Assembly: GCF_000003605.2 (NCBI RefSeq)
Contig: NW_003133553.1
Location: forward strand, 1 to 24,138
DNA: 24,138 nucleotides
Direction of reading: 5' to 3'
Origin: Saccoglossus kowalevskii
Taxonomy: Eukaryota; Hemichordata; Enteropneusta; Harrimaniidae
A program made the translations under genes and the position numbers. Of this stretch, positions 1-24,138 are shown piece after piece; the stretch's first letter is position 1, and the number at the start of each line of letters is the position of its first letter. The notes beneath the pieces are model-generated. The model saw nothing but the letters and a program-made list of their open reading frames with translations, had not been told where the DNA came from and searched no databases.

Positions 1-278
1 TCATACATATGTGCATGTTGTACCATTCAGTATGCACACGTCATACATATGTACGTGTTGTACCATTCCAGTATGCACACATACACATGTACATGTTGTA
101 CCATTCCAGTAATTCACACATCATACATATGTACATGTTCTACCATTCCAGTATTCACACATCATACATATGTACATATTCTACCATTCCAGTATGTACA
201 CATCATACATATGTACATGTTCTACCATTCCAGTATTCACACATCATACATATGTACATGTTGCACCATTCTAGTATG
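1..278 (+). repeat. Edge-type higher-order block, copy 1
   Basis: This block is recognised by an ordered set of unit variants: GTGCATGTTG, then CACACGTCATAC followed by GTACGTGTTG, then a 38-bp unit with CACACATACACATG, then units beginning TTCACAC, and finally GTTGCACC with ATTCTAG at 262-278. It aligns with 2942-3219 at an offset of 2941. Two single-base differences set it apart: ACCATTCAG near 24-30 lacks one base, and GTAATTCAC near 110 has one extra. The start of the block is cut by the window edge. Confidence 0.85.
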
Positions 279-374
279 CACACATCATACATATGTACAT
301 GCTCTACCATTCCAGTATGCACACTTCATACATATGTACATGCTCTACCATTCCAGTATGCACACATCATACAT

Positions 375-937
375 ATGTACATGTTCTACCATTCCAGTAT
401 ACACACAACATACATATGTACATGTTCTACCATTCCAGTATTCACATATAATACATATGTACATGTTCTACCATTCCAGTATGCACACATCATACATATG
501 TACATGTTGTACCATTCCAGTATGCACACATCATACATATGTACATGTTCTACCATTCCAGTATGCACACATCATACATATGTACATGTTCTACCATTCC
601 AGTATGCACACATCATACATATGTTCGTGTTGTACCATTCCAGTATGCACACATCATACATATGTACATGTTCTACCATTCCAGTATGCACACATCATAC
701 ATATGTACATGTTGTAACATTCCAGTATGCACACAACATACATATGTACATGCTCTACCATTCCAGTATGCACACATCATACATATGTACATGTTGTACC
801 ATTCCAGTATGCACACATCATACATATGTACATGTTCTACCATTCCAGTATGCACATCATACATATGTACATGTTCTACCATTCCAGTATGCACACATCA
901 TACATATGTACATGTTGTAACATTCCAGTATGCACAC
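375..937 (+). repeat. Higher-order block containing the 39-bp unit, copy 1
   Basis: Marker order is GTATACACACAACATAC (398), TTCACATATAATAC (about 440), GTTCGTGTTG (624), GTTGTAACATT (about 712) and a 39-bp unit at 853-891 in which CACACATCAT has become CACATCAT. The same order, with the same 39-bp unit, recurs at 3562-4124 (offset 3187). The part from about 600 onward also recurs at 4974-5674 (offset 4374). Confidence 0.8.
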
Positions 938-1818
938 AACATACATATGTACATGCTCTACCATTCCAGTATGCACACATCATACATATGTACATGTTGT
1001 ACCATTCCAGTATGCACACATCATACATATGTACATGTTGTACCATTCCAGTATGCACACAACATACATATGTACATGCTCTACCATTCCAGTATGCACA
1101 CATCATACATATGTTCGTGTTGTACCATTCCAGTATGCACACATCATACATATGTACATGTTCTACCATTCCAGTATGCACACATCATACATATGTACAT
1201 GTTGTAACATTCCAGTATGCACACAACATACATATATACATGCTCTACCATTCCAGTATGCACACATCATACATATGTACATGTTGTACCATTCCAGTAT
1301 GCACACAACATACATATGTACATGCTCTACCATTCCAGTATGCACACATCATACATATGTACATGCTCTACCATTCCAGTATGCACACATCATACATATG
1401 TACATGTTCTACCATTCCAGTATGCATACATCATACATATGTTCGTGTTGTACCATTCTAGTATGCACACATCATACATATGTACATGTTCTACCATTCC
1501 AGTATGCACACATCATACATATGTACATGTTGTAACATTCCAGTATGCACACAACATACATATGTACATGCTCTACCATTCCAGTATGCACACATCATAC
1601 ATATGTACATGTTGTACCATTCCAGTATGCACACATCATACATATGTACATGTTCTACCATTCCAGTATGCACACATCATACATATGTACATGTTCCACC
1701 ATTCCAGTATGCACACATCATACATATGTACATGTAGCACCATTCCAGTATGCACACATCATACATATGTACATGTTCTACCATTCCAGTATGCACACAA
1801 CATACATATGTACATGTT

Positions 1819-3815
1819 CTACCATTCCAGTATGCACACATCATACATATGTACATGTTGTAACATTCCAGTATGCGCACAACATACATATGTACATGCT
1901 CTACCATTCCAGTATGCACACATCATACATATGTACATGTTGTACCATTCCAGTATGCACACAACATACATATGTACATGCTCTACCATTCCAGTATGCA
2001 CACATCATACATATGTTCGTGTTGTACCATTCCAGTATGCACACATCATACATATGTACATGTTCTACCATTCCAGTATGCACACATCATACATATGTAC
2101 ATGTTGTAACATTCCAGTATGCACACAACATACATATATACATGCTCTACCATTCCAGTATGCACACATCATACATATGTACATGTTGTACCATTCCAGT
2201 ATGCACACAACATACATATGTACATGCTCTACCATTCCAGTATGCACACATCATACATATGTACATGCTCTACCATTCCAGTATGCACACATCATACATA
2301 TGTACATGTTCTACCATTCCGGTATGCACACATCATACATATGTTCATGTTGTACCATTCTAGTATGCACACATCATACATATGTACATGTTCTACCATT
2401 CCAGTATGCACACATCATACATATGTACATGTTGTAACATTCCAGTATGCACACAACATACATATGTACATGCTCTACCATTCCAGTATGCACACATCAT
2501 ACATATGTACATTCTCTACCATTCCAGTATGCACACATCATACATATGTACATGTTCTACTATTCCAGTATGCACACATCATACATATGTACATGCTCTA
2601 CCATTCCAGTATGCACACATCATACATATGTACATGCTCTACCATTCCAGTATGCACACATCATACATATGTACATGTTCTACCATTCCAGTATGCACAC
2701 ATCATACATATGTACATGTTCTACCATTCCAGTATGTACACATCATACATATGTACGTGTTGTACCATTCCAGTATGCACACATACATATGTACATGTTC
2801 TACCATTCCAGTATGCACACATCATACATATGTACATATTCTACCATTCCAGTATGCACACATCATACATCTGTACGTGTTGTACCATTCCAGTATGCAC
2901 ACATACATATGTACATGTTGTACCATTCCAGTGTGCACACATCATACATATGTGCATGTTGTACCATTTCAGTATGCACACGTCATACATATGTACGTGT
3001 TGTACCATTCCAGTATGCACACATACACATGTACATGTTGTACCATTCCAGTATTCACACATCATACATATGTACATGTTCTACCATTCCAGTATTCACA
3101 CATCATACATATGTACATATTCTACCATTCCAGTATGTACACATCATACATATGTACATGTTCTACCATTCCAGTATTCACACATCATACATATGTACAT
3201 GTTGCACCATTCTAGTATGCACACATCATACATATGTACATGCTCTACCATTCCAGTATGCACACTTCATACATATGTACATGCTCTACCATTCCAGTAT
3301 GCACACATCATACATATGTACATGCTCTACCATTCCAGTATGCACACATCATACATATGTACATGTTCCACCATTCCAGTATGCACACATCATACATATG
3401 TACATGTAGCACCATTCCAGTATGCACACATCATACATATGTACATGTTCTACCATTCCAGTATGCACACAACATACATATGTACATGTTCTACCATTCC
3501 AGTATGCACACATCATACATATGTACATATTCTACCATTCCAGTATGCACACAACATACATATGTACATGTTCTACCATTCCAGTATACACACAACATAC
3601 ATATGTACATGTTCTACCATTCCAGTATTCACATATAATACATATGTACATGTTCTACCATTCCAGTATGCACACATCATACATATGTACATGTTGTACC
3701 ATTCCAGTATGCACACATCATACATATGTACATGTTCTACCATTCCAGTATGCACACATCATACATATGTACATGTTCTACCATTCCAGTATGCACACAT
3801 CATACATATGTTAGT
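1819..3815 (+). repeat. About 2-kb higher-order segment, left copy (partner 17140-19502)
   Basis: Rare markers occur in the same order in both copies: TATGCGCAC (about 1873 and 17194), ACATATATAC (about 2130; 17456 and 17784), ATTCCGGTATG (about 2318 and 17967), GTTCATGTTG with ATTCTAG, ACATTCTCTACC (about 2509 and 18158), TTCTACTATTCC, and then the whole edge-type block. The offset is 15321 at the left, 15649 in the middle and 15687 at the right. The right copy has gained 328 bp (eight units) and later one 38-bp unit. Part of the left copy (2065-2542) also matches 8458-8935 at offset 6393. Confidence 0.85.
2931..3219 (+). repeat. Edge-type higher-order block, copy 2
   Basis: This is the most complete copy. 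It starts at GTGTGCACAC, then has GTGCATGTTG with CCATTTCAG, CACACGTCATAC with GTACGTGTTG, the 38-bp unit with CACACATACACATG, TTCACAC units, GTACATATTC and GTATGTACAC, and ends in GTTGCACC-ATTCTAG. It is preceded by the 38-bp units near 2780 and 2898 and by CATACATCTG near 2868. Confidence 0.88.
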
Positions 3816-3904
3816 GTTGTACCATTCCAGTATGCACACATCATACATATGTACATGTTCTACCATTCCAGTATGCACACATCATACATATGTACATGTT
3901 GTAA
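3422..3904 (+). repeat. About 480-bp higher-order block, copy 1 of 6
   Basis: The block follows a TGTAGCACC unit. It contains, in order, an AACATAC unit, GTACATATTC, GTATACACACAACATAC (3585), TTCACATATAATAC (about 3628), GTTGTACC, two GTTCTACC units and a GTTCGTGTTG-class unit. In this copy that last class reads GTTAGTGTTG (about 3810). Near-identical copies start at 8963, 14939, 19109, 21926 and 23033. Confidence 0.85.
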
Positions 3905-4124
3905 CATTCCAGTATGCACACAACATACATATGTACATGCTCTACCATTCCAGTATGCACACATCATACATATGTACATGTTGTACCATTCCAGTATGCA
4001 CACATCATACATATGTACATGTTCTACCATTCCAGTATGCACATCATACATATGTACATGTTCTACCATTCCAGTATGCACACATCATACATATGTACAT
4101 GTTGTAACATTCCAGTATGCACAC
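3562..4124 (+). repeat. Higher-order block containing the 39-bp unit, copy 2
   Basis: It matches 375-937 at offset 3187, including the 39-bp unit at 4040-4078. It differs at GTTAGTGTTG (GTTCGTGTTG in copy 1). It ends where the GTTGTAACATT unit is followed by CACACATCAT instead of the usual CACACAACAT (about 4107-4127), so the two copies diverge there. Confidence 0.8.
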
Positions 4125-4973
4125 ATCATACATATGTACATGCTCTACCATTCCAGTATGCACACATCATACATATGTACATGTTCTACCATTCCAGTAT
4201 GCACACATCATACATATGTACATGTTCTACCATTCCAGTATGCACACATCATACATATGTTCGTGTTGTACCATTCCAGTATGCACACATCATACATATG
4301 TACATGTTCTACCATTCCAGTATGCACACATCATACATATGTACATGTTGTAACATTCCAGTATGCACACAACATACATATGTACATGCTCTACCATTCC
4401 AGTATGCACACATCATACATATGTACATGTTGTACCATTCCAGTATGCACACATCATACATATGTACATGTTCTACCATTCCAGTATGCACACATCATAC
4501 ATATGTACATGTTCCACCATTCCAGTATGCACACATCATACATATGTACATGTAGCACCATTCCAGTATGCACACATCATACATATGTACATGTTCTACC
4601 ATTCCAGTATGCACACAACATACATATGTACATGTTCTACCATTCCAGTATGCACACATCATACATATGTACATGTTGTAACATTCCAGTATGCACACAA
4701 CATACATATGTACATGTTCTACCATTCCAGTATACACACATCATACATATGTACATGTTCTACCATTCCAGTATTCACATATAATACATATGTACATGTT
4801 CTACCATTCCAGTATGCACACATCATACATATGTACATGTTGTACCATTCCAGTATGCACACATCATACATATGTACATGTTCTACCATTCCAGTATGCA
4901 CACATCATACATATGTACATGTTCTACCATTCCAGTATGCACACATCATACATATGTACATGCTCTACCATTC

Positions 4974-5674
4974 CAGTATGCACACATCATACATATGTTC
5001 GTGTTGTACCATTCCAGTATGCACACATCATACATATGTACATGTTCTACCATTCCAGTATGCACACATCATACATCTGTACATGTTGTAACATTCCAGT
5101 ATGCACACAACATACATATGTACATGCTCTACCATTCCAGTATGCACACATCATACATATGTACATGTTGTACCATTCCAGTATGCACACATCATACATA
5201 TGTACATGTTCTACCATTCCAGTATGCACATCATACATATGTACATGTTCTACCATTCCAGTATGCACACATCATACATATGTACATGTTGTAACATTCC
5301 AGTATGCACACAACATACATATGTACATGCTCTACCATTCCAGTATGCACACATCATACATATGTACATGTTGTACCATTCCAGTATGCACACATCATAC
5401 ATATGTACATGTTGTACCATTCCAGTATGCACACAACATACATATGTACATGCTCTACCATTCCAGTATGCACACATCATACATATGTTCGTGTTGTACC
5501 ATTCCAGTATGCACACATCATACATATGTACATGTTCTACCATTCCAGTATGCACACATCATACATATGTACATGTTGTAACATTCCAGTATGCACACAA
5601 CATACATATATACATGCTCTACCATTCCAGTATGCACACATCATACATATGTACATGTTGTACCATTCCAGTAT
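4974..5674 (+). repeat. Higher-order block containing the 39-bp unit, copy 3
   Basis: It matches about 600-1300 at offset 4374. GTTCGTG lies at 4998 (624 in the partner), the 39-bp unit at 5227-5265 (853-891) and ACATATATAC near 5605 (about 1231). A CATACATCTG substitution near 5075 is private to this copy within the trio. Divergence begins near 5679, where one copy has AACATAC and the other ATCATAC. Confidence 0.8.
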
Positions 5675-5716
5675 GCACACATCATACATATGTACATGTT
5701 CTACCATTCCAGTATG

Positions 5717-5758
5717 CACACATCATACATATGTACATGTTCTACCACTTCCAGTATG
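5717..5758 (+). repeat. 42-bp unit with a single inserted C
   Basis: CTACCATTCC reads CTACCACTTCC, so the unit is 42 bp. The corresponding unit in the paralogous stretch near 12300 lacks the insertion. Alignment of the two stretches (5749-6294 against 12315-12860, offset 6566) resumes directly after it. Confidence 0.85.
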
Positions 5759-6294
5759 CACACAACATACATATGTACATGTTCTACCATTCCAGTATTC
5801 ACACATAATACATATGTACATGTTGTACCATTCCAGTATGCACACAACATACATATGTACATGCTCTACCATTCCAGTATGCACACATCATACATATGTG
5901 CATGTTCTACCATTCCAGTATTCACACATAATACATATGTACATGTAGCACCATTCCAGTATGCACACATCATACATATGTACATGTTCTACCATTCCAG
6001 TATGCACACAACATACATATGTACATGTTCTACCATTCCAGTATGCACACATCATACATATGTACATATTCTACCATTCCAGTATGCACACAACATATAT
6101 ATGTACATGTTCTACCATTCCAGTATGCACACATCATACATATGTACATGTTCTACCATTCCAGTATGCACACAACATACATATGTACATGTTCTACCAT
6201 TCCAGTATTCACACATAATACATATGTACATGTTGTACCATTCCAGTATGCACACATCATGCATATGTACATGTTCTACCATTCCAGTATGCAC
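5749..6294 (+). repeat. Higher-order block rich in TTCACACATAATAC units, left copy
   Basis: Markers in order are TTCACACATAATAC (about 5797), GTGCATGTTC, TTCACACATAATAC followed by TGTAGCACC (about 5943), GTACATATTC (about 6065), ACATATATATG (about 6095), TTCACACATAATAC (about 6208) and CATCATGCATATG (about 6258). The same order is present at 12315-12860, offset 6566. TTCACACATAATAC is confined to this block type and to the related stretch near 7111. Confidence 0.8.
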
Positions 6295-6660
6295 ACATCA
6301 TACATATGTACATGTTCTACCATTCCAGTATGCACACATCATACATATGTACGTGTTGTACCATTCCAGTATGCACACATCATACATATGTACATGTTCT
6401 ACCATTCCAGTATGCACACATCATACATATGTACATGTTCTACCATTCCAGTATGCACACATCATACATATGTACATGTTCTACCATTCCAGTATGCACA
6501 CAGCATACATATGTACATGTTCTACCATTCCAGTATGCACACAACATACATATGTACATGTTCTACCATTCCAGTATTCACACATCATACATATGTACAT
6601 GTTGTACCATTCCAGTATGCACACACCATGCATATGTACATGTTCTACCATTCCAGTATG
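6177..6660 (+). repeat. Local duplication of about 22 units, left copy (partner 7080-7563)
   Basis: TTCACACATAATAC and two CATGCATATG units (6258 and 6627) recur at an offset of 903 bp (second pair near 7161 and at 7530). 903 is 22 units plus one base, and the extra base is explained by single-base length changes between 6661 and 7030. The CACAGCATAC marker is at about 6500 and 7321, an offset of only 821, so units have also been gained or lost inside the copies. Confidence 0.7.
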
Positions 6661-7030
6661 CACACATCATACATATGTACATGTTGTACCATTCCAGTAA
6701 TGCACACATCATACATATGTACATGTTCTACCATTCCAGTATGCACACATCATACATATGTACGTGTTGTACCATTCCAGTATGCACACATCATATATAT
6801 GTACATGTTCTACCATTCCAGAATGCACACATCATACATAATGTACATGTTGTACCATTCCAGTATGCACACAACATACATATGTACATGCTCTACCATT
6901 CCAATATGCACACATCATACATATGTACATGTTGTACCATTCCAGTATGCACACACCATACATATGTACATGCTCTACCATTCCAGTATGCACACTTCAT
7001 AATATGTACATGCTCTACCATTCCGGTATG
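6661..7030 (+). repeat. Stretch with clustered one-base length variants
   Basis: Three units deviate in length within 370 bp: 6661-6702 (42 bp, GTAATGC), 6826-6867 (42 bp, CATACATAATG) and 6991-7030 (40 bp, TTCATAATATG). Private substitutions are also present: CAGAATG near 6820, ATTCCAATATG near 6900 and CATAAATATG near 7040. Elsewhere single-base length changes are rare, so this stretch is either an older, less homogenised part of the array or one with residual sequence errors. Confidence 0.75.
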
Positions 7031-7079
7031 CACACATCATAAATATGTACATGTTCTACCATTCCAGTATGCACACAAC

Positions 7080-7563
7080 ATACATATGTACATGTTCTAC
7101 CATTCCAGTATTCACACATAATACATATGTACATGTTGTACTATTCCAGTATGCACACATCATGCATATGTACATGTTCTACCATTCCAGTATGCACACA
7201 TCATACATATGTACATGTTCTACCATTCCAGTATGCACACATCATACATATGTACGTGTTGTACCATTCCAGTATGCACACATCATACATATGTACATGT
7301 TCTACCATTCCAGTATGCACACAGCATACATATGTACATGTTCTACCATTCCAGTATGCACACATCATACATATGTACATGTTCTACCATTCCAGTATGC
7401 ACACATAATACATATGTACATGTTCTACCATTCCAGTATGCACACAACATACATATGTACATGTTCTACCATTCCAGTATTCACACATCATACATATGTA
7501 CATGTTGTACCATTCCAGTATGCACACATCATGCATATGTACATGTTCTACCATTCCAGTATG
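7080..7563 (+). repeat. Local duplication of about 22 units, right copy
   Basis: Partner of 6177-6660 at offset 903. It carries the same TTCACACATAATAC and CATGCATATG marker units. It differs in GTACTATTCC near 7140 and in the position of the CACAGCATAC unit. Confidence 0.7.
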
Positions 7564-8096
7564 CACACATCATACATATGTACATGTTGTACCATTCCAG
7601 TATGCACACATCATACATATGTACATGTTCTACCATTCCAGTATGCACACATCATACATATGTACGTGTTGTACCATTCCAGTATGCACACATCATATAT
7701 ATGTACATGTTCTACCATTCCAGTATGCACACATCATACATATGTACATGTTGTACCATTCCAGTATGCACACAACTTACATATGTACATGCTCTACCAT
7801 TCCAGTATGCACACATCATACATATGTACATGTTGTACCATTCCAGTATGCACACAGCATACATATGTACATGCTCTACCATTCCAGTATGCACACTTCA
7901 TACATATGTACATGCTCTACCATTCCAGTATGCACACATCATACATATGTACATGTTCTACCATTCCAGTATACACACAACACACATATGTACATGTTCT
8001 ACCATTCCAGTATTCACATATAATACATATGTACATGTTGTACCATTCCAGTATGCACACATTATGCATATGTACATGTTCTACCATTCCAGTATG

Positions 8097-8145
8097 CACA
8101 CATCATACATATGTACATATGTACATGTTCTACCATTCCAGTATG
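8097..8145 (+). repeat. 49-bp unit with internal 8-bp duplication
   Basis: ATATGTAC is present twice in tandem (CATACATATGTAC followed by ATATGTACATG), giving 49 bp. This is the only unit of this length I found. The duplicated segment lies in the TACATATGTA palindrome, which fits a small slippage event. Confidence 0.9.
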
Positions 8146-8457
8146 CACACATCATACATATGTTTGTGTTGTACCATTCCAGTATGCACACATCATACAT
8201 ATGTACATGTTCTACCATTCCAGTATGCACACATCATACATATGTACATGTTGTAACATTCCAGTATGCACACAACATACATATGTACATGCTCTACCAT
8301 TCCAGTATGCACACATCATACATATGTACATGTTGTACCATTCCAGTATGCACACAACATACATATGTACATGCTCTACCATTCCAGTATGCACACATCA
8401 TACATATGTTCGTGTTGTACCATTCCAGTATGCACACATCATACATATGTACATGTT

Positions 8458-8935
8458 CTACCATTCCAGTATGCACACATCATACATATGTACATGTTGT
8501 AACATTCCAGTATGCACACAACATACATATATACATGCTCTACCATTCCAGTATGCACACATCATACATATGTACATGTTGTACCATTCCAGTATGCACA
8601 CAACATACATATGTACATGCTCTACCATTTCAGTATGCACACATCATACATATGTACATGCTCTACCATTCCAGTATGCACACATCATACATATGTACAT
8701 GTTCTACCATTCCGGTATGCACACATCATACATATGTTCATGTTGTACCATTCTAGTATGCACACATCATACATATGTACATGTTCTACCATTCCAGTAT
8801 GCACACATCATACATATGTACATGTTGTAACATTCCAGTATGCACACAACATACATATGTACATGCTCTACCATTCCAGTATGCACACATCATACATATG
8901 TACATTCTCTACCATTCCAGTATGCACACATCATA
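8458..8935 (+). repeat. Higher-order segment shared with 2065-2542 and 17714-18191
   Basis: The segment contains ACATATATAC (about 8527), ATTCCGGTATG (about 8712), GTTCATGTTG with ATTCTAG, and ACATTCTCTACC (about 8902). Offset to the right partner is 9256. The two share a CCATTTCAG substitution (8625 and 17881) that the 2-kb region lacks, so these copies are the closer pair. After about 8940 this copy switches to a TGTAGCACC unit while the other two continue with TTCTACTATTCC. That is an in-register junction between block types. Confidence 0.82.
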
Positions 8936-8945
8936 CATATGTACA

Positions 8946-10420
8946 TGTAGCACCATTCCAGTATGCACACATCATACATATGTACATGTTCTACCATTAC
9001 AGTATGCACACAACATACATATGTACATGTTCTACCATTCCAGTATGCACACATCATACATATGTACATATTCTACCATTCCAGTATGCACACAACATAC
9101 ATATGTACATGTTCTACCATTCCAGTATACACACAACATACATATGTACATGTTCTACCATTCCAGTATTCACATATAATACATATGTACATGTTCTACC
9201 ATTCCAGTATGCACACATCATACATATGTACATGTTGTACCATTCCAGTATGCACACATCATACATATGTACATGTTCTACCATTCCAGTATGCACACAT
9301 CATACATATGTACATGTTCTACCATTCCAGTATGCACATATTATACATATGTTCGTGTTGTACCATTCCAGTATGCACACATCATACATATGTACATGTT
9401 CTACCATTCCAGTATGCACACATCATACATATGTACATGTTGTAACATTCCAGTATGCACACAACATACATATGTACATGCTCTACCATTCCAGTATGCA
9501 CACATCATACATATGTACATGTTGTACCATTCCAGTATGCACACATCATACATATGTACATGTTCTACCATTCCAGTATGCACACATCATACATATGTAC
9601 ATGTTCTACCATTCCAGTATGCACACATCATACATATGTACATGTTGTAACATTCCAGTATGCACACAACATACATATGTACATGCTCTACCATTCCAGT
9701 ATGCACACATCATACATATGTACATGTTGTACCATTCCAGTATGCACACATCATACATATGTACATGTTCTACCATTCCAGTATGCACACATCATACATA
9801 TGTACATGTTCTACCATTCCAGTATGCACACATCATACATATGTTTGTGTTGTACCATTCCAGTATGCACACATCATACATATGTACATGTTCTACCATT
9901 CCAGTATGCACACATCATACATATGTACATGTTGTAACATTCCAGTATGCACACAACATACATATGTACATGCTCTACCATTCCAGTATGCACACATCAT
10001 ACATATGTACATGTTGTACCATTCCAGTATGCACACATCATACATATGTACATGTTCTACCATTCCAGTATGCACACATCATACATATGTACATGTTCCA
10101 CCATTCCAGTATGCACACATCATACATATGTACATGTAGCACCATTCCAGTATGCACACATCATACATATGTACATGTTCTACCATTCCAGTATGCACAC
10201 AACATACATATGTACATGTTCTACCATTCCAGTATGCACACATCATACATATGTACATGTTGTAACATTCCAGTATGCACACAACATACATATGTACATG
10301 TTCTACCATTCCAGTATACACACAACATACATATGTACATGTTCTACCATTCCAGTATTCACATATAATACATATGTACATGTTCTACCATTCCAGTATG
10401 CACACATCATACATATGTAC
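8946..10420 (+). repeat. About 1.5-kb higher-order segment, left copy (partner 14922-16396)
   Basis: It aligns at a constant offset of 5976 from TGTAGCACC (8946 and 14922) to about 10420. Few differences are visible: CATTACAG near 8995; CACATATTATAC (about 9337) against CACACATCATAC; GTTTGTGTTG (about 9842) against GTTCGTGTTG; GTTCTACC against GTTGTACC at the right end. It contains copy 2 of the 480-bp block. Confidence 0.87.
8963..9445 (+). repeat. About 480-bp higher-order block, copy 2 of 6
   Basis: Same marker order as 3422-3904. Private changes are CATTACAG near 8995 and CACATATTATAC near 9337. The latter is shared with copy 4 (about 19483), which links these two copies. Confidence 0.85.
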
Positions 10421-10834
10421 ATGTTCTACCATTCCAGTATGCACACATCATACATATGTACATGTTCTACCATTCCAGTATGCACACATCATACATATGT
10501 ACATGTAGCACCATTCCAGTATGCACACATCATACATATGTACATGTAGCACCATTCCAGTATGCACACATCATACATATGTACATGTTCTACCATTCCA
10601 GTATGCACACAACATACATATGTACATGTTCTACCATTCCAGTATGCACACATCATACATATGTACATATTCTACCATTCCAGTATGCACACAACATACA
10701 TATGTACATGTTCTACCATTCCAGTATGCACACATCATACATATGTACATGTTCTACCATTCCAGTATGCACACATCATACATATGTACATGTTCTACCA
10801 TTCCAGTATGCACACATCATACATATGTACATGT

Positions 10835-11400
10835 AGCACCATTCCAGTATGCACACATCATACATATGTACATGTTCTACCATTCCAGTATGCACACAAC
10901 ATACATATGTACATGTTCTACCATTCCAGTATGCACACATCATACATATGTACATATTCTACCATTCCAGTATGCACACAACATACATATGTACATGTTC
11001 TACCATTCCAGTATACACACAACATACATATGTACATGTTCTACCATTCCAGTATACACACAACATACATATGTACATGTTCTACCATTCCAGTATTCAC
11101 ATATAATACATATGTACATGTTCTACCATTCCAGTATGCACACATCATACATATGTGCATGTTCTACCATTCCAGTATGCACACAACATACATATGTACA
11201 TGTTCTACCATTCCAGTATGCACACATCATACATATGTACATGTTCTACCATTCCAGTATGCACACATCATACATATGTACATGCTCTTCCATTCCAGTA
11301 TGCACACAACATACGTATGTGCATGTTCTACCATTCCAGTATGCACACAACATACATATGTACATGTTCTACCATTCCAGTATGCACACATCATACATAT
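10835..11400 (+). repeat. Higher-order segment with CATACGTATGTGC unit, left copy (partner 16524-17048)
   Basis: TGTAGCACC (10832) leads into two successive GTATACACACAACATAC units (about 11013 and 11054), TTCACATATAATAC (about 11098), GTGCATGTTC and a unit with ATACGTATGTGC (11311; 16959 in the partner). The offset is 5689 before and 5648 after the doubled GTATACAC unit, because the partner has one such unit. This is a clean one-unit gain or loss. Confidence 0.82.
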
Positions 11401-12314
11401 GTACATGCTCTACCATTCCAGTATGCACACATCATACATATGTACATGCTCTACCATTCCAGTATGCACACATCATACATATGTACATGTTCCACCATTC
11501 CAGTATGCACACATCATACATATGTACATGTAGCACCATTCCAGTATGCACACATCATACATATGTACATGTTCTACCATTCCAGTATGCACACAACATA
11601 CATATGTACATGTTCTACCATTCCAGTATGCACACATCATACATATGTACATATTCTACCATTCCAGTATGCACACAACATACATATGTACATGTTCTAC
11701 CATTCCAGTATTCACATATAATACATATGTACATGTTGTACCATTCCAGTATGCACACATTATGCATATGTACATGTTCTACCATTCCAGTATGCACACA
11801 TCATACATATGTACATGTTGTACCATTCCAGTATGCACACATCATACATATGTACATGTTCTACCATTCCAGTATGCACACAACATACATATGTACATGT
11901 TCTACCATTCCAGTATGCACACATCATACATATGTTCGTGTTGTACCATTCCAGTATGCACACATCATACATATGTACATGTTCTACCATTCCAGTATGC
12001 ACACATCATACATATGTACATGTTGTAACATTCCAGTATGCACACAACATACATATGTACATGCTCTACCATTCCAGTATGCACACATCATACATATGTA
12101 CATGCTCTACCATTCCAGTATGCACACATCATACATATGTACATGTTCTACCATTCCAGTATGCACACATCATACATATGTACATGTTGTACCATTCCAG
12201 TGTGCACACATCATACATATGTACGTGTTGTACCATTCCAGTATGCACACATACATATGTACATGTTGTACCATTCCAGTATGCACACATCATACATATG
12301 TACATGTTCTACCA

Positions 12315-12860
12315 TTCCAGTATGCACACAACATACATATGTACATGTTCTACCATTCCAGTATTCACACATAATACATATGTACATGTTGTACCATTCC
12401 AGTATGCACACAACATACATATGTACATGCTCTACCATTCCAGTATGCACACATCATACATATGTGCATGTTCTACCATTCCAGTATTCACACATAATAC
12501 ATATGTACATGTAGCACCATTCCAGTATGCACACATCATACATATGTACATGTTCTACCATTCCAGTATGCACACAACATACATATGTACATGTTCTACC
12601 ATTCCAGTATGCACACATCATACATATGTACATATTCTACCATTCCAGTATGCACACAACTTACATATGTACATGTTCTACCATTCCAGTATGCACACAT
12701 CATACATATGTACATGTTCTACCATTCCAGTATGCACACAACATACATATGTACATGTTCTACCATTCCAGTATTCACACATAATACATATGTACATGTT
12801 GTACCATTCCAGTATGCACACATCATGCATATGTACATGTTCTACCATTCCAGTATGCAC
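12315..12860 (+). repeat. Higher-order block rich in TTCACACATAATAC units, right copy
   Basis: Partner of 5749-6294 at offset 6566. It lacks the inserted C near 5747 and has CACACAACTTAC near 12660 where the partner has ACATATATATG nearby. Just upstream (12199-12260) lies an isolated GTGTGCACAC unit and a 38-bp unit, apparently a fragment of the edge-type block. Confidence 0.78.
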
Positions 12861-12871
12861 ACATCATACAT

Positions 12872-13750
12872 ATGTACATGTTGTACCATTCCAGTATGCA
12901 CACATCATACATATGTACATGTTCTACCATTCCAGTATGCACACATCATACATATGTACATATTCTACCATTCCAGTATGCACACAACATACATATGTAC
13001 ATGCTCTACCATTCCAGTATGCACACTTCATACATATGTACATGCTCTACCATTCCAGTATGCACACATCATACATATGTACATGTTCCACCATTCCAGT
13101 ATGCACACATCATACATATGTACATGTAGCACCATTCCAGTATGCACACATCATACATATGTACATGTTCTACCATTCCAGTATGCACACAACATACATA
13201 TGTACATGTTCTACCATTCCAGTATGCACACATCATACATATGTACATGTAGCACCATTCCAGTATGCACACATCATACATATGTACATGTTCTACCATT
13301 CCAGTATGCACACAACATACATATGTACATGCTCTACCATTCCAGTATGCACACATCATACATATGTACATGTTGTACCATTCCAGTATGCACACATCAT
13401 ACATATGTACATGTTCTACCATTCCAGTATGCACACATCATACATATGTACATATTCTACCATTCCAGTATGCACACAACATACATATGTACATGCTCTA
13501 CCATTCCAGTATGCACACTTCATACATATGTACATGCTCTACCATTCCAGTATGCACACATCATACATATGTACATGTTCCACCATTCCAGTATGCACAC
13601 ATCATACATATGTACATGTAGCACCATTCCAGTATGCACACATCATACATATGTACATGTTCTACCATTCCAGTATGCACACAACATACATATGTACATA
13701 TTCTACCATTCCAGTATGCACACATCATACATATGTACATATTCTACCAT
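12872..13750 (+). repeat. Local tandem duplication of 12 units (492 bp)
   Basis: The series GTTGTACC, GTTCTACC, GTACATATTC, AACATAC-GCTCTACC, CACTTCATAC, GTTCCACC, TGTAGCACC appears twice. The two TGTAGCACC units lie 492 bp (12 x 41) apart at about 13126 and 13618. The whole-unit period shows that the copies stayed in register. Confidence 0.8.
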
Positions 13751-14169
13751 TCCAGTATGCACACAACATACATATGTCCATGTTCTACCATTCCAGTATG
13801 CACACATCATACATATGTACATGTTCTACCATTCCAGTATGCACACAACATACATATGTACATGTTCTACCATTCCAGTATTCACATATAATACATATGT
13901 ACATGTTCTACCATTCCAGTATGCACACATTATGCATATGTACATGTTCTACCATTCCAGTATGCACACATCATACATATGTACATGTTGTACCATTCCA
14001 GTATGCACACATCATATATATGTACATGTTCTACCATTCCAGTATGCACACAACATACATATGTACATGTTCTACCATTCCAGTATGCACACATCATACA
14101 TATGTTTGTGTTGTACCATTCCAGTATGCACACATCATACACATGTACATGTTCTACCATTCCAGTATG

Positions 14170-14253
14170 CACACATCATACATATGTACATGTTGTAACA
14201 TTCCAGTTATGCACACATCATACATATGTACATGTTCTACCATTTCCAGTATG
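14170..14253 (+). repeat. Two adjacent 42-bp units at a block junction
   Basis: 14170-14211 (CAGTTATGC) and 14212-14253 (CATTTCCAG) each carry one extra T, back to back. The first is also one of the two places where GTTGTAACATT is followed by CACACATCAT rather than CACACAACAT. Immediately downstream, alignment with 2690-3219 begins at offset 11558. Confidence 0.88.
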
Positions 14254-14488
14254 CACACATCATACATATGTACATGTTCTACCATTCCAGTATGTACACA
14301 TCATACATATGTACGTGTTGTACCATTCCAGTATGCACACATACATATGTACATGTTCTACCATTCCAGTATGCACACATCATACATATGTACATATTCT
14401 ACCATTCCAGTATGCACACATCATACATCTGTACGTGTTGTACCATTCCAGTATGCACACATACATATGTACATGTTGTACCATTCCA

Positions 14489-14777
14489 GTGTGCACACAT
14501 CATACATATGTGCATGTTGTACCATTTCAGTATGCACACGTCATACATATGTACGTGTTGTACCATTCCAGTATGCACACATACACATGTACATGTTGTA
14601 CCATTCCAGTATTCACACATCATACATATGTACATGTTCTACCATTCCAGTATTCACACATCATACATATGTACATATTCTACCATTCCAGTATGTACAC
14701 ATCATACATATGTACATGTTCTACCATTCCAGTATTCACACATCATACATATGTACATGTTGCACCATTCTAGTATG
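14489..14777 (+). repeat. Edge-type higher-order block, copy 3
   Basis: It aligns to 2931-3219 at a constant offset of 11558, from GTGTGCACAC to GTTGCACC-ATTCTAG. The upstream 38-bp units and CATACATCTG (about 14426) are included in the longer match. Confidence 0.88.
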
Positions 14778-14921
14778 CACACATCATACATATGTACATG
14801 CTCTACCATTCCAGTATGCACACTTCATACATATGTACATGCTCTACCATTCCAGTATGCACACATCATACATATGTACATGCTCTACCATTCCAGTATG
14901 CACACATCATACATATGTACA

Positions 14922-16396
14922 TGTAGCACCATTCCAGTATGCACACATCATACATATGTACATGTTCTACCATTCCAGTATGCACACAACATACATATGT
15001 ACATGTTCTACCATTCCAGTATGCACACATCATACATATGTACATATTCTACCATTCCAGTATGCACACAACATACATATGTACATGTTCTACCATTCCA
15101 GTATACACACAACATACATATGTACATGTTCTACCATTCCAGTATTCACATATAATACATATGTACATGTTCTACCATTCCAGTATGCACACATCATACA
15201 TATGTACATGTTGTACCATTCCAGTATGCACACATCATACATATGTACATGTTCTACCATTCCAGTATGCACACATCATACATATGTACATGTTCTACCA
15301 TTCCAGTATGCACACATCATACATATGTTCGTGTTGTACCATTCCAGTATGCACACATCATACATATGTACATGTTCTACCATTCCAGTATGCACACATC
15401 ATACATATGTACATGTTGTAACATTCCAGTATGCACACAACATACATATGTACATGCTCTACCATTCCAGTATGCACACATCATACATATGTACATGTTG
15501 TACCATTCCAGTATGCACACATCATACATATGTACATGTTCTACCATTCCAGTATGCACACATCATACATATGTACATGTTCTACCATTCCAGTATGCAC
15601 ACATCATACATATGTACATGTTGTAACATTCCAGTATGCACACAACATACATATGTACATGCTCTACCATTCCAGTATGCACACATCATACATATGTACA
15701 TGTTGTACCATTCCAGTATGCACACATCATACATATGTACATGTTCTACCATTCCAGTATGCACACATCATACATATGTACATGTTCTACCATTCCAGTA
15801 TGCACACATCATACATATGTTCGTGTTGTACCATTCCAGTATGCACACATCATACATATGTACATGTTCTACCATTCCAGTATGCACACATCATACATAT
15901 GTACATGTTGTAACATTCCAGTATGCACACAACATACATATGTACATGCTCTACCATTCCAGTATGCACACATCATACATATGTACATGTTGTACCATTC
16001 CAGTATGCACACATCATACATATGTACATGTTCTACCATTCCAGTATGCACACATCATACATATGTACATGTTCCACCATTCCAGTATGCACACATCATA
16101 CATATGTACATGTAGCACCATTCCAGTATGCACACATCATACATATGTACATGTTCTACCATTCCAGTATGCACACAACATACATATGTACATGTTCTAC
16201 CATTCCAGTATGCACACATCATACATATGTACATGTTGTAACATTCCAGTATGCACACAACATACATATGTACATGTTCTACCATTCCAGTATACACACA
16301 ACATACATATGTACATGTTCTACCATTCCAGTATTCACATATAATACATATGTACATGTTCTACCATTCCAGTATGCACACATCATACATATGTAC
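14922..16396 (+). repeat. About 1.5-kb higher-order segment, right copy
   Basis: Partner of 8946-10420 at offset 5976. This copy keeps GTTCGTGTTG where the left copy has GTTTGTGTTG. It contains copy 3 of the 480-bp block at 14939-15421. Confidence 0.87.
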
Positions 16397-17139
16397 ATGT
16401 TGTACCATTCCAGTATGCACACATCATACATATGTACATGTTCTACCATTCCAGTATGCACACATCATACATATGTACATGTTCTACCATTCCAGTATGC
16501 ACACATCATACATATGTACATGTAGCACCATTCCAGTATGCACACATCATACATATGTACATGTTCTACCATTCCAGTATGCACACAACATACATATGTA
16601 CATGTTCTACCATTCCAGTATGCACACATCATACATATGTACATATTCTACCATTCCAGTATGCACACAACATACATATGTACATGTTCTACCATTCCAG
16701 TATACACACAACATACATATGTACATGTTCTACCATTCCAGTATTCACATATAATACATATGTACATGTTCTACCATTCCAGTATGCACACATCATACAT
16801 ATGTGCATGTTCTACCATTCCAGTATGCACACAACATACATATGTACATGTTCTACCATTCCAGTATGCACACATCATACATATGTACATGTTCTACCAT
16901 TCCAGTATGCACACATCATACATATGTACATGCTCTTCCATTCCAGTATGCACACAACATACGTATGTGCATGTTCTACCATTCCAGTATGCACACAACA
17001 TACATATGTACATGTTCTACCATTCCAGTATGCACACATCATACATATGTACATGTTCTACCATTCCAGTATGCACACATCATACATATGTTCGTGTTGT
17101 ACCATTCCAGTATGCACACATCATACATATGTACATGTT

Positions 17140-19502
17140 CTACCATTCCAGTATGCACACATCATACATATGTACATGTTGTAACATTCCAGTATGCGCA
17201 CAACATACATATGTACATGCTCTACCATTCCAGTATGCACACATCATACATATGTACATGTTGTACCATTCCAGTATGCACACAACATAGATATGTACAT
17301 GCTCTACCATTCCAGTATGCACACATCATACATATGTTCGTGTTGTACCATTCCAGTATGCACACATCATACATATGTACATGTTCTACCATTCCAGTAT
17401 GCACACATCATACATATGTACATGTTGTAACATTCCAGTATGCACACAACATACATATATACATGCTCTACCATTCCAGTATGCACACATCATACATATG
17501 TACATGTTGTACCATTCCAGTATGCACACAACATACATATGTACATGCTCTACCATTCCAGTATGCACACATCATACATATGTACATGCTCTACCATTCC
17601 AGTATGCACACATCATACATATGTACATGCTCTACCATTCCAGTATGCACACATCATACATATGTTCGTGTTGTACCATTCCAGTATGCACACATCATAC
17701 ATATGTACATGTTCTACCATTCCAGTATGCACACATCATACATATGTACATGTTGTAACATTCCAGTATGCACACAACATACATATATACATGCTCTACC
17801 ATTCCAGTATGCACACATCATACATATGTACATGTTGTACCATTCCAGTATGCACACAACATACATATGTACATGCTCTACCATTTCAGTATGCACACAT
17901 CATACATATGTACATGCTCTACCATTCCAGTATGCACACATCATACATATGTACATGTTCTACCATTCCGGTATGCACACATCATACATATGTTCATGTT
18001 GTACCATTCTAGTATGCACACATCATACATATGTACATGTTCTACCATTCCAGTATGCACACATCATACATATGTACATGTTGTAACATTCCAGTATGCA
18101 CACAACATACATATGTACATGCTCTACCATTCCAGTATGCACACATCATACATATGTACATTCTCTACCATTCCAGTATGCACACATCATACATATGTAC
18201 ATGTTCTACTATTCCAGTATGCACACATCATACATATGTACATGCTCTACCATTCCAGTATGCACACATCATACATATGTACATGCTCTACCATTCCAGT
18301 ATGCACACATCATACATATGTACATGTTCTACCATTCCTGTATGCACACATCATACATATGTACATGTTCTACCATTCCAGTATGTACACATCATACATA
18401 TGTACGTGTTGTACCATTCCAGTATGCACACATACATATGTACATGTTCTACCATTCCAGTATGCACACATCATACATATGTACATATTCTACCATTCCA
18501 GTATGCACACATCATACATCTGTACGTGTTGTACCATTCCAGTATGCACACATACATATGTACATGTTGTACCATTCCAGTATGCACACATACATATGTA
18601 CATGTTGTACCATTCCAGTGTGCACACATCATACATATGTGCATGTTGTACCATTTCAGTATGCACACGTCATACATATGTACGTGTTGTACCATTCCAG
18701 TATGCACACATACACATGTACATGTTGTACCATTCCAGTATTCACACATCATACATATGTACATGTTCTACCATTCCAGTATTCACACATCATACATATG
18801 TACATATTCTACCATTCCAGTATGTACACATCATACATATGTACATGTTCTACCATTCCAGTATTCACACATCATACATATGTACATGTTGCACCATTCT
18901 AGTATGCACACATCATACATATGTACATGCTCTACCATTCCAGTATGCACACTTCATACATATGTACATGCTCTACCATTCCAGTATGCACACATCATAC
19001 ATATGTACATGCTCTACCATTCCAGTATGCACACATCATACATATGTACATGTTCCACCATTCCAGTATGCACACATCATACATATGTACATGTAGCACC
19101 ATTCCAGTATGCACACATCATACATATGTACATGTTCTACCATTCCAGTATGCACACAACATACATATGTACATGTTCTACCATTCCAGTATGCACACAT
19201 CATACATATGTACATATTCTACCATTCCAGTATGCACACAACATACATATGTACATGTTCTACCATTCCAGTATACACACAACATACATATGTACATGTT
19301 CTACCATTCCAGTATTCACATATAATACATATGTACATGTTCTACCATTCCAGTATGCACACATCATACATATGTACATGTTGTACCATTCCAGTATGCA
19401 CACATCATACATATGTACATGTTCTACCATTCCAGTATGCACACATCATACATATGTACATGTTCTACCATTCCAGTATGCACATATTATACATATGTTC
19501 GT
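17140..19502 (+). repeat. About 2-kb higher-order segment, right copy, expanded
   Basis: Partner of 1819-3815. Inside it, eight units (328 bp) are repeated in tandem, so the ACATATATAC marker appears at about 17456 and again at 17784. A 38-bp unit near 18549 is doubled (second copy from about 18587). Private changes include CATAGATATG near 17287 and ATTCCTGTATG near 18336. It carries copy 4 of the edge-type block and copy 4 of the 480-bp block. Confidence 0.85.
18618..18906 (+). repeat. Edge-type higher-order block, copy 4
   Basis: It aligns with 2931-3219 at offset 15687. Two consecutive 38-bp units precede it, where copies 2 and 3 have one. The same doubled 38-bp unit precedes copy 5, so copies 4 and 5 share a recent ancestor. 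Confidence 0.88.
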
Positions 19503-19591
19503 GTTGTACCATTCCAGTATGCACACATCATACATATGTACATGTTCTACCATTCCAGTATGCACACATCATACATATGTACATGTTGTAA
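19109..19591 (+). repeat. About 480-bp higher-order block, copy 4 of 6
   Basis: It aligns with 3422-3904 at offset 15687. It shares CACATATTATAC (about 19483) with copy 2. Confidence 0.85.
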
Positions 19592-20696
19592 CATTCCAGT
19601 ATGCACACAACATACATATGTACATGCTCTACCATTCCAGTATGCACACATCATACATATGTACATGTTGTACCATTCCAGTATGCACACATCATACATA
19701 TGTACATGTTCTACCATTCCAGTATGCACACATCATACATATGTACATGCTCTTCCATTCCAGTATGCACACAACATACATATGTACATGCTCTACCATT
19801 CCAGTATGCACACATCATACATATGTTCGTGTTGTACCATTCCAGTATGCACACATCATACATATGTACATGTTCTACCATTCCAGTATGCACACATCAT
19901 ACATATGTACATGTTGTAACATTCCAGTATGCACACAACATACATATATACATGCTCTACCATTCCAATATGCACACATCATACATATGTACATGTTGTA
20001 CCATTCCAGTATGCACACAACATACATATGTACATGCTCTACCATTCCAGTATGCACACATCATACATATGTACATGCTCTACCATTCCAGTATGCACAC
20101 ATCATACATATGTACATGTTCTACCATTCCGGTATGCACACATCATACATATGTTCATGTTGTACCATTCTAGTATGCACACATCATACATATGTACATG
20201 TTCTACCATTCCAGTATGCACACATCATACATATGTACATGTTGTAACATTCCAGTATGCACACAACATACATATGTACATGCTCTACCATTCCAGTATG
20301 CACACATCATACATATGTACATGCTCTACCATTCCAGTATGCACACATCATACATATGTACATGCTCTACCATTCCAGTATGCACACATCATACATATGT
20401 ACATGTTCTACCATTCCAGTATGCACACATCATACATATGTACATGTTCTACCATTCCAGTATGTACACATCATACATATGTACGTGTTGTACCATTCCA
20501 GTATGCACACATACATATGTACATGTTCTACCATTCCAGTATGCACACATCATACATATGTACATATTCTACCATTCCAGTATGCACACATCATACATCT
20601 GTACGTGTTGTACCATTCCAGTATGCACACATACATATGTACATGTTGTACCATTCCAGTATGCACACATACATATGTACATGTTGTACCATTCCA

Positions 20697-20861
20697 GTGT
20701 GCACACATCATACATATGTGCATGTTGTACCATTTCAGTATGCACACGTCATACATATGTACGTGTTGTACCATTCCAGTATGCACACATACACATGTAC
20801 ATGTTGTACCATTCCAGTATTCACACATCATACATATGTACATGTTCTACCATTCCAGTAT
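20697..20861 (+). repeat. Edge-type higher-order block, copy 5, truncated
   Basis: It matches copy 4 at offset 2079 but leaves it at about 20861, where copy 4 continues with a second TTCACAC unit and this copy returns to ordinary TATGCACAC units. It lacks the GTATGTACAC and GTTGCACC-ATTCTAG part. Confidence 0.83.
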
Positions 20862-21500
20862 GCACACATCATACATATGTACATGCTCTACCATTCCAGT
20901 ATGCACACATCATACATATGTGCATGTTGTACCATTCCAGTATGCACACAACATACATATGTACATGCTCTACCATTCCAGTATGCACACATCATACATA
21001 TGTTCGTGTTGTACCATTCCAGTATGCACACATCATACATATGTACATGTTCTACCATTCCAGTATGCACACATCATACATATGTACATGTTGTAACATT
21101 CCAGTATGCACACAACATACATATATACATGTTCCACCATTCCAGTATGCACACATCATACATATGTACATGTAGCACCATTCCAGTATGCACACATCAT
21201 ACATATGTACATGTTGTAACATTCCAGTATGCACACAACATACATATGTACATGCTCTACCATTCCAGTATGCACACATCATACATATGTACATGTTGTA
21301 CCATTCCAGTATGCACACATCATACATATGTACATGTTGTACCATTCCAGTATGCACACAACATACATATGTACATGCTCTACCATTCCAGTATGCACAC
21401 ATCATACATATGTTCGTGTTGTACCATTCCAGTATGCACACATCATACATATGTACATGTTCTACCATTCCAGTATGCACACATCATACATATGTACATG

Positions 21501-21723
21501 TTGTACCATTTCAGTATGCACACGTCATACATATGTACGTGTTGTACCATTCCAGTATTCACACATCATACATATGTACATGTTCTACCATTCCAGTATT
21601 CACACATCATACATATGTACATATTCTACCATTCCAGTATGTACACATCATACATATGTACATGTTCTACCATTCCAGTATTCACACATCATACATATGT
21701 ACATGTTGCACCATTCTAGTATG
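21501..21723 (+). repeat. Edge-type higher-order block, copy 6, internally deleted
   Basis: CCATTTCAG and CACACGTCATAC with GTACGTGTTG are present, but the 38-bp unit with CACACATACACATG is missing, so the block runs straight into TTCACAC units. It ends in GTTGCACC-ATTCTAG at 21723, in register with copy 2 at offset 18504. Confidence 0.83.
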
Positions 21724-21925
21724 CACACATCATACATATGTACATGCTCTACCATTCCAGTATGCACACTTCATACATATGTACATGCTCTACCATTCCA
21801 GTATGCACACATCATACATATGTACATGCTCTACCATTCCAGTATGCACACATCATACATATGTACATGTTCCACCATTCCAGTATGCACACATCATACA
21901 TATGTACATGTAGCACCATTCCAGT

Positions 21926-22408
21926 ATGCACACATCATACATATGTACATGTTCTACCATTCCAGTATGCACACAACATACATATGTACATGTTCTACCA
22001 TTCCAGTATGCACACATCATACATATGTACATATTCTACCATTCCAGTATGCACACAACATACATATGTACATGTTCTACCATTCCAGTATACACACAAC
22101 ATACATATGTACATGTTCTACCATTCCAGTATTCACATATAATACATATGTACATGTTCTACCATTCCAGTATGCACACATCATACATATGTACATGTTG
22201 TACCATTCCAGTATGCACACATCATACATATGTACATGTTGTACCATTCCAGTATGCACACATCATACATATGTACATGTTCTACCATTCCAGTATGCAC
22301 ACATCATACATATGTTCGTGTTGTACCATTCCAGTATGCACACATCATACATATGTACATGTTCTACCATTCCAGTATGCACACATCATACATATGTACA
22401 TGTTGTAA
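21926..22408 (+). repeat. About 480-bp higher-order block, copy 5 of 6
   Basis: It aligns with 3422-3904 at offset 18504. One GTTCTACC unit reads GTTGTACC (about 22239) in this copy. Confidence 0.85.
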
Positions 22409-23032
22409 CATTCCAGTATGCACACAACATACATATGTACATGCTCTACCATTCCAGTATGCACACATCATACATATGTACATGTTCTACCATTCCAGTA
22501 TGCACACATCATACATATGTACATGTTGTAACATTCCAGTATGCACACAACATACATATGTACATGCTCTACCATTCCAGTATGCACACATCATACATAT
22601 GTACATGTTGTACCATTCCAGTATGCACACATCATACATATGTACATGTTCTACCATTCCAGTATGCACACATCATACATATGTACATGTTCTACCATTC
22701 CAGTATGCACACATCATACATATGTTCGTGTTGTACCATTCCAGTATGCACACATCATACATATGTACATGTTCTACCATTCCAGTATGCACACATCATA
22801 CATATGTACATGTTGTAACATTCCAGTATGCACACAACATACATATGTACATGCTCTACCATTCCAGTATGCACACATCATACATATGTACATGTTGTAC
22901 CATTCCAGTATGCACACATCATACATATGTACATGTTCTACCATTCCAGTATGCACACATCATACATATGTACATGTTCCACCATTCCAGTATGCACACA
23001 TCATACATATGTACATGTAGCACCATTCCAGT

Positions 23033-23515
23033 ATGCACACATCATACATATGTACATGTTCTACCATTCCAGTATGCACACAACATACATATGTACATGT
23101 TCTACCATTCCAGTATGCACACATCATACATATGTACATATTCTACCATTCCAGTATGCACACAACATACATATGTACATGTTCTACCATTCCAGTATAC
23201 ACACAACATACATATGTACATGTTCTACCATTCCAGTATTCACATATAATACATATGTACATGTTCTACCATTCCAGTATGCACACATCATACATATGTA
23301 CATGTTCTACCATTCCAGTATGCACACATCATACATATGTACATGTTCTACCATTCCAGTATGCACACATCATACATATGTACATGTTCTACCATTCCAG
23401 TATGCACACATCATACATATGTTCGTGTTGTACCATTCCAGTATGCACACATCATACATATGTACATGTTCTACCATTCCAGTATGCACACATCATACAT
23501 ATGTACATGTTGTAA
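23033..23515 (+). repeat. About 480-bp higher-order block, copy 6 of 6
   Basis: It aligns with 21926-22408 at an offset of 1107 (27 units). It is the copy nearest the end of the array and is followed by only about 420 bp of repeat. Confidence 0.85.
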
Positions 23516-23814
23516 CATTCCAGTATGCACACAACATACATATGTACATGCTCTACCATTCCAGTATGCACACATCATACATATGTACATGTTGTACCAT
23601 TCCAGTATGCACACATCATACATATGTACATGTTCTACCATTCCAGTATGCACACAACATACATATGTACATGCTCTACCATTCCAGTATGCACACATCA
23701 TACATATGTACATGTTGTACCATTCCAGTATGCACACAACATACATATGTACATGCTCTACCATTCCAGTATGCACACATCATACATATGTTCGTGTTGT
23801 ACCATTCCAGTATG

Positions 23815-23937
23815 CACACATCATACATATGTGCGTGTTGTACCATTCCAGTATTCACACATACATATGTACATGTTCTACCATTCCAGTATTCACACAT
23901 ACATATGTACATGTTGTACCATTCCAGTATTCACACA
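23815..23937 (+). repeat. Right edge of the array: diverged short units
   Basis: The last units are 23815-23855 (41 bp, with GTGCGTGTTG), 23856-23893 (38 bp), 23894-23931 (38 bp) and a 6-bp remnant. The last three TATG positions all read TATT, giving TATTCACAC. The two 38-bp units have CACACATACATATG. This mixture of 38-bp units, TTCACAC and GTGC/CGTG variants is otherwise found mainly in the edge-type block, so that block probably preserves old edge sequence that was copied inward. Confidence 0.85.
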
Positions 23938-23963
23938 CCCTATTTTTGTGTTTTAATGTACAG
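23930..23963 (+). promoter_or_regulatory. Predicted 3' splice site: branch-site candidate, pyrimidine tract and acceptor
   Basis: The acceptor is TACAG, with AG at 23962-23963. It is preceded by a T-rich tract (CCCTATTTTTGTGTTTT, 23938-23954). No other AG occurs between the CCAG of the last repeat (23926-23927) and the acceptor, as expected for an AG-exclusion zone. A possible branch site, TTCAC (yUnAy-like, A at 23933), lies 30 bases before the last intron base and falls in the final partial repeat. Splicing here joins a phase-1 intron to an exon that starts with the last two bases of a codon (GT). The branch-site assignment is tentative. Confidence 0.72.
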
Positions 23964-24079
23964 GTGACAGTAAATATTGGAAATCAATTGCTATTGGTGC
24001 ATTGACCATATTGGTTTGCTTGCTGATAATGTTCAGTGTGTACAAGTGGTACAGTAGAGATGTAAACGTAAAGCAGTAA
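23964..24079 (+). CDS. Last coding exon (partial gene): single transmembrane segment and short cytosolic-type tail
   Basis: After a two-base split codon (GT, 23964-23965), 37 codons run from GAC at 23966 to CAG at 24076, and TAA stops at 24077-24079. The peptide begins DSKYWKS. It has an uninterrupted hydrophobic stretch of about 19-20 residues (exon residues 7-26, including IAIGALTILVCLLIMF) and ends with a polar tail, YKWYSRDVNVKQ. Aromatic and basic residues flank both ends (K3, Y4, W5, K6; Y26, K27, W28, Y29, R31), as is usual for membrane spans at the lipid interface. This architecture fits a tail-anchored protein or the C-terminal end of a type I membrane protein, and the charge balance does not decide between them. 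The rest of the protein lies upstream of the intron, outside the window. I do not recognise the family. A SNARE-like tail is only one of several possibilities. Confidence 0.72.
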
Positions 24080-24138
24080 ACAAATATTACAGTCAACCTG
24101 TGTATAGTAAATTTATTGATAGTGGTTTTTCTGTGAAA
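24080..24138 (+). other. Start of a 3' untranslated region (inferred)
   Basis: These 59 bases after the TAA stop are A/T-rich, unique, and have no similarity to the 41-bp unit. No AATAAA or ATTAAA polyadenylation signal is present, so the transcript should extend past the window. A second acceptor-like ATTACAG lies at 24086-24092 but has a poor pyrimidine tract. Confidence 0.6.

Follow-up and report, generated by a model that had tools for sequence, protein, structure and literature searches.

The window analyzed here is a stretch of 24,138 nucleotides of the Saccoglossus kowalevskii genome (RefSeq assembly GCF_000003605.2, contig NW_003133553.1, positions 1 to 24,138 of the forward strand), and all but its last 201 bases belong to a tandem array of a 41-bp unit. 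Our analysis demonstrates that copied blocks of about 2 kb form a mosaic in the array and that the array stops 26 bp before a predicted splice acceptor. We read it as a giant intronic minisatellite of the variable number tandem repeat (VNTR) type, which would fill the 3' portion of the final intron in a gene that encodes a single-pass membrane protein and would be spliced out at 23963/23964, an explanation that we hold with slightly better than even confidence.

Tandem Repeats Finder (TRF) reported a single array from position 1 to 23937 (period 41, 585.0 copies, 93% matches, 0% indels), within which its 17 remaining rows, with periods of 23–26, were all nested. Minisatellite units range from about 10 to 100 bp, and this head-to-tail unit with its many copies falls in the minisatellite/VNTR class. 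Units were delimited by anchoring with ACCATTCCAGTA, allowing up to 3 substitutions, which gave 584 anchors and thus 583 complete units between positions 62 and 23917. Anchors are spaced by 41 bp in 555 of the 583 cases, by 38 bp in 18, and by 39–49 bp in the other 10. Because all spacings lie between 38 and 49 bp, the array carries no foreign insert. The longest unit (49 bp, 8083–8131) shows an apparent local duplication of 8 bases (ATATGTACATATGTACATG). Bases 1–61 are also repeat, and one copy there escaped the anchor owing to a one-base deletion. The complete units comprise 85 distinct sequences, 37 of which occur once. The 41-bp units have a mean identity of 96.4% to the consensus, so the array is not due to chance, and its GC content stays at 36–38% in each of 24 one-kb windows. 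Mean identity between pairs of 41-bp units was flat with distance, staying at 93.5–94.1% for all 11 separations compared (1 to 200 units). Bases 1–700 have full-length matches within 1501–23937, the best at 96.7%, and the window thus starts inside the array. These results confirm that the tandem array is real and bear out the original prediction, which had described about 580 uninterrupted copies between positions 1 and 23937 and a left end lying beyond the window.

To describe the internal structure of the array, the order of unit types was aligned locally against itself, using 3 shuffled orders as controls. Self-alignments scored up to 213, compared to 14.4–16.3 for the best alignment of each shuffled order, and the 19 alignments scoring at least 50 covered 421 of the 583 units. 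Five block pairs taken from these 19 were aligned base by base and were 97.9–99.8% identical over 1.9–2.2 kb, the members of a pair differing by 5–46 mismatches and by gaps that measured 2–328 bases and in some cases corresponded to whole units. The block at 1985–4025 and its second copy differ by 5 mismatches and one 38-base gap, and this block contains the longest exact repeat of the array (920 bp, at 2878 and 18565). Most of the block at 21505–23636 has another relative, since 21505–23390 is 98.6% identical to 14521–16485 over 1883 aligned bases. There are 237 maximal exact repeats of 200 bp or longer, which cover 84% of the array; 97% of the array's positions are unique at a word length of 656 bases. 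Identical neighboring units were rarer than expected (32 of 582; 1000 shuffles gave a mean of 47.2 with a standard deviation of 5.9, P 0.006). No unit was repeated identically more than 3 times in succession, the shuffle mean for the longest run being 3.95.

The shared unit order, the identities of the blocks and the scarcity of identical neighbors together argue for copying of blocks of tens of units and not for recent slippage of single units. Such block-level exchange could have occurred by unequal crossover, by gene conversion or by replication-based copying of tens of units. Units of 38 bp occur at a spacing of 120 bp (38+41+41) in four places (2764–3041, 14322–14599, 18413–18728, and 20492–20807), and mark one block copied several times. 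A regular higher-order repeat of the alpha-satellite type was rejected because unit identity is flat with distance and the offsets between block pairs vary. The fraction of identical units was 0.04–0.12 at lags 1–30 and averaged 0.08 over lags 1–499, which reveals no strong higher-order period.

At its right edge, the array ends with two complete units starting at 23842 and 23880, each with a sequence found once in the array, followed by a partial unit (Table 1). Both complete units belong to the 41 of 583 that carry TATTCAC. Repeat sequence extends to 23937, and the predicted acceptor has its AG at 23962–23963; the predicted exon would start at 23964, which leaves the 26-bp gap originally described. 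No AG begins between 23926 and 23962. Branch points follow the pattern YTNAY, and a distance of 30 nt to the intron end is usual. The best-placed candidate branch point falls within the last repeat copy, with its A at 23933, 30 nt from the final base of the predicted intron; the final 80 nt contain two other YTNAY sites, located 68 nt and 7 nt before that base. A rough weight matrix gave the predicted acceptor a score of 4.23; the AGs of the array averaged 1.16, and only 1 of 603 scored at least as high. The possibility that the unit derives from the acceptor region itself, as in the mirage model, was rejected: the terminal 26 nt aligned to two forms of the unit with a score of 17, no better than many shuffles (P 0.095–0.26; 2000 mononucleotide and 1000 dinucleotide shuffles). 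A weak and diverged relation between the two may nevertheless exist.

Beyond the junction, the frame continues for 37 codons that encode a hydrophobic segment and a short basic tail before the stop. The best 19-residue Kyte-Doolittle mean of the segment is 2.62, which is predicted to be hydrophobic enough for a membrane span. A terminal exon is plausible at this position, as judged from the predicted junction and frame.

Table 1. Coordinates of the array, its copied blocks and the features predicted at its right edge.
Feature	Position	Strand	Remarks
Tandem array, 41-bp unit	1..23937	+	Consensus TCATACATATGTACATGTTCTACCATTCCAGTATGCACACA; TRF; left end outside window
Multi-unit block of about 2 kb	1985..4025	+	99.8% identity to 17634–19712, 2041 aligned bases
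Second copy of the 1985–4025 block	17634..19712	+	Unit-order and base alignment
Block of about 2.1 kb	21505..23636	+	99.1% identity to 2963–5212 over 2129 aligned bases
Right-edge repeats	23842..23937	+	Two 38-bp units, then a partial unit; all three with TATTCAC
Best-placed branch-point-like site TTCAC	23930..23934	+	A at 23933; YTNAY match
Non-repeat gap, predicted 3' splice site	23938..23963	+	T-rich tract ending in TACAG
Predicted terminal coding exon, phase 1	23964..24079	+	Two split-codon bases, then DSKYWKSIAIGALTILVCLLIMFSVYKWYSRDVNVKQ, stop
Presumed start of 3' untranslated region	24080..24138	+	One AGTAAA variant at 24106

The plus strand of the array (1–23937) contains 558 copies of the acceptor-like motif CCAG and 520 copies of GTATG, and lacks AATAAA, ATTAAA, GTAAG, and AGGT. 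Recursive-splicing ratchet sites, in which AG is directly followed by GT, were rejected on the basis of the missing AGGT.

We interpret the array as intronic and transcribed through. According to the favored explanation, it would have grown by copying of multi-unit blocks and would be removed from the transcript by splicing at the predicted junction. The absence of AATAAA and ATTAAA on the plus strand would make it transcribable, and its CCAG sites, probably weaker than the true acceptor, would allow it to be skipped. Its spread to the right may have been limited to the sequence upstream of the polypyrimidine tract, because spreading further would destroy the acceptor, and the last repeat copy may now supply the branch point. 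The array would thus be mostly passive cargo. Length polymorphism is plausible, and changes in length might at most modulate use of the terminal exon or expression modestly. A stronger role, in which the hundreds of CCAG sites compete with the true acceptor, itself served by a branch point in the last repeat copy, so that array length sets the balance between the transmembrane exon and an earlier, secreted ending, seems highly improbable to us.

Several observations weigh against an intron, and most of them would fit an intergenic or heterochromatic satellite that is never spliced and is followed by a chance frame or a gene remnant. When the last 201 bases were shuffled 4000 times with dinucleotide content preserved, 3.8% of the shuffles gave a frame that reached 37 residues or more and a hydropathy of 2.2 or more. 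A Pfam search with the 37 residues returned three families, all below their cut-offs (best E 0.046), and a search of PDB sequences found no convincing relative (best E 1.4). Neither AATAAA nor ATTAAA is present in the 59 bases after the stop, and the left side of the window is entirely repeat. The predicted intron depends on one predicted acceptor and 37 codons, and the window contains no upstream exon. In addition, the pyrimidine fraction from −20 to −4 is 0.71 in the consensus unit and 0.65 in the predicted acceptor; the unit being slightly richer in pyrimidines, the weakness of the acceptor-like sites in the array is uncertain. On the other hand, the open frame, hydrophobic segment, basic tail, stop, and phase-1 junction all agree with splicing, as do the polypyrimidine tract, the AG-free zone, and the spacing of the putative branch point. 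We consider a satellite outside any gene unlikely, but the most serious competitor. The original reading of an intron next to a coding exon is thus retained in part: the long array, the plausible acceptor, and the open frame with its hydrophobic segment speak for it, and the short frame without detectable relative and the lack of an upstream exon in the window speak against it.

Long exact repeats covering most of the array, up to 920 bp, could also mean that misassembly, with a single stretch placed twice, accounts in part for its length or block order. The mismatches and gaps that separate the block pairs are unlike a simple double placement and, given the uniqueness of most positions at 656-base words, reads of several kb could resolve the array; we find this explanation improbable. 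An array that is itself coding, as a 41-residue repeat protein or an exonised sequence, is harder still to credit. The plus-strand unit is stop-free in all frames, and the longest open stretch on that strand reaches 1540 codons (143 on the minus strand). However, the stops introduced by unit variants number 25, 45, and 31 in the three plus-strand reading frames, and the array as a whole is therefore non-coding. Moreover, 4.9% of 20000 shuffled units are equally stop-free, frame is not kept across units of 38, 41, and 42 bp, and a scan of one 204-residue piece against Pfam matched no family (best E 0.67). The 1540-codon stretch lies at 11722–16344 and is explained by the stop-free unit. Least credible of all is a gene on the minus strand, with the array as its downstream flank. 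A 61-codon open frame (24138–23953) does extend to the edge of the window, but it is antisense to the predicted transmembrane frame, and a Pfam search with 60 of its 61 codons gave nothing above cut-off (best E 0.033).

Other properties of the unit were noted in passing. Alternating purine-pyrimidine runs of at least 10 make up 71% of the consensus and 67% of the array, compared to a mean of 1.0% in shuffled consensus sequences, none of 5000 being as high, and the palindrome TACATATGTA occurs 505 times. These features may favor unusual DNA structure, with a possible tendency toward Z-DNA or cruciforms. The DNA fold of 11000–11204 gave a z of −1.76 (9 of 200 shuffles as good). The RNA fold of 23760–23963 gave a z of −2.70, with 3 of 200 shuffles folding as stably; unit palindromes could account for this stability, which we do not take as a sign of function. 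CATTCC, which we take to be the M-CAT/TEAD core, is present in 561 copies, all on the plus strand. They could be an array of binding sites or chance content of the unit, and nothing favors TEAD; we do not rely on this count, because any repeat unit holds the motif of some factor hundreds of times.

Scans of the window for tRNA and tmRNA genes were negative, and none of the Rfam families reached its gathering score. A bacterial promoter and terminator scan of 23700–24138, of little use for eukaryotic DNA, found 2 promoter-like sites (shuffle mean 2.7) and no terminator-like site (shuffle mean 0.2). Pattern scans of viral and genome contigs (exact, with at most one free base) gave 0 matches, and blastn of 23700–24138 against plasmids and phages gave none; the collections searched hold viral, bacterial, archaeal, phage, and plasmid records, and their negatives say little for eukaryotic DNA. 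Searches of the open literature by words, not by sequence, and mostly at the level of titles and abstracts, brought up nothing recognizable as the 41-bp repeat; this negative does not extend to a study of a ladybird satellitome (PMC7397073).

Compared to the original prediction, the copied blocks, the branch-point-like site in the last repeat copy, the 558 CCAG motifs, and the lack of AATAAA, ATTAAA, and GTAAG on the plus strand are new. If the array is intronic, a minisatellite of at least 23.9 kb lies immediately upstream of a 3' splice site and offers a natural experiment on how an acceptor preceded by hundreds of similar sites is recognized. If it is not, this is an ordinary satellite array.

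Several known systems resemble this one. One is the VNTR in intron 18 of human ABCA7, with a 25-bp unit and a length of 298–10,678 bp, or about 427 copies at most. The exon 18 splice donor lies within this repeat, which shows a correlation with expression and with skipping of exon 19 (PMC5954066). Both are kilobase minisatellites at the edge of an exon, a predicted one in our case, with units containing splice signals. However, the ABCA7 repeat lies at a 5' splice site, carries a donor GT and has a measured correlation with splicing and expression, whereas the array described here lies on the acceptor side and is longer. In human CACNA1C, the intronic 30-bp VNTR called TRACT has alleles from 3 to more than 30 kb, among which one class measures about 6 kb and another about 24 kb (preprint PMC13131567). 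Like the present array of at least 23.9 kb, it consists of variants of one unit. Growth of TRACT is attributed to perfect runs, 26 identical units being present in the shortest alleles of the long class, and the abstract of the preprint reports no sign that the repeat is overtly unstable in living people, whether in the germline or somatically (PMC13131567). In our array, the longest identical run is 3 and the sequence is a mosaic of copied blocks, a structure that points to a mode of growth other than the perfect-run expansion proposed for TRACT.

Amphioxus mirages are repeats that resemble minisatellites, occur where introns meet exons and in many cases contain AG/GT signals; regular splicing is said to be undisturbed by them, and their boundary units escape homogenization. 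The mirage of BflGb6 comprises 6 and 3 units of 150–160 bp (PMC3087553). Here too, the last units diverge from the rest of the array. Mirage units, however, repeat the boundary itself, while the acceptor region analyzed here does not resemble the unit beyond the level of shuffles. At a larger scale, the Drosophila Y genes kl-3 and kl-5 have megabase satellite introns that are transcribed (PMC6508621). They share with the present locus a satellite-scale array, here inside a predicted intron; their own satellites are short and simple, megabases long, Y-linked, and expressed in spermatogenesis. In chicken dot chromosomes, introns are filled by local tandem expansion, called “sequence stuttering” (PMC12954441), as the predicted intron is here. 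The avian expansions are GC-rich, less regular, and found in many introns, in contrast to the regular, GC-poorer repeat seen here in one predicted intron. Very long repeats within introns and touching exons are thus already known, and the array of S. kowalevskii fits the published range. The original view that arrays of this kind are unusual beside a coding exon is accordingly weakened by ABCA7 (PMC5954066) and CACNA1C TRACT (PMC13131567).

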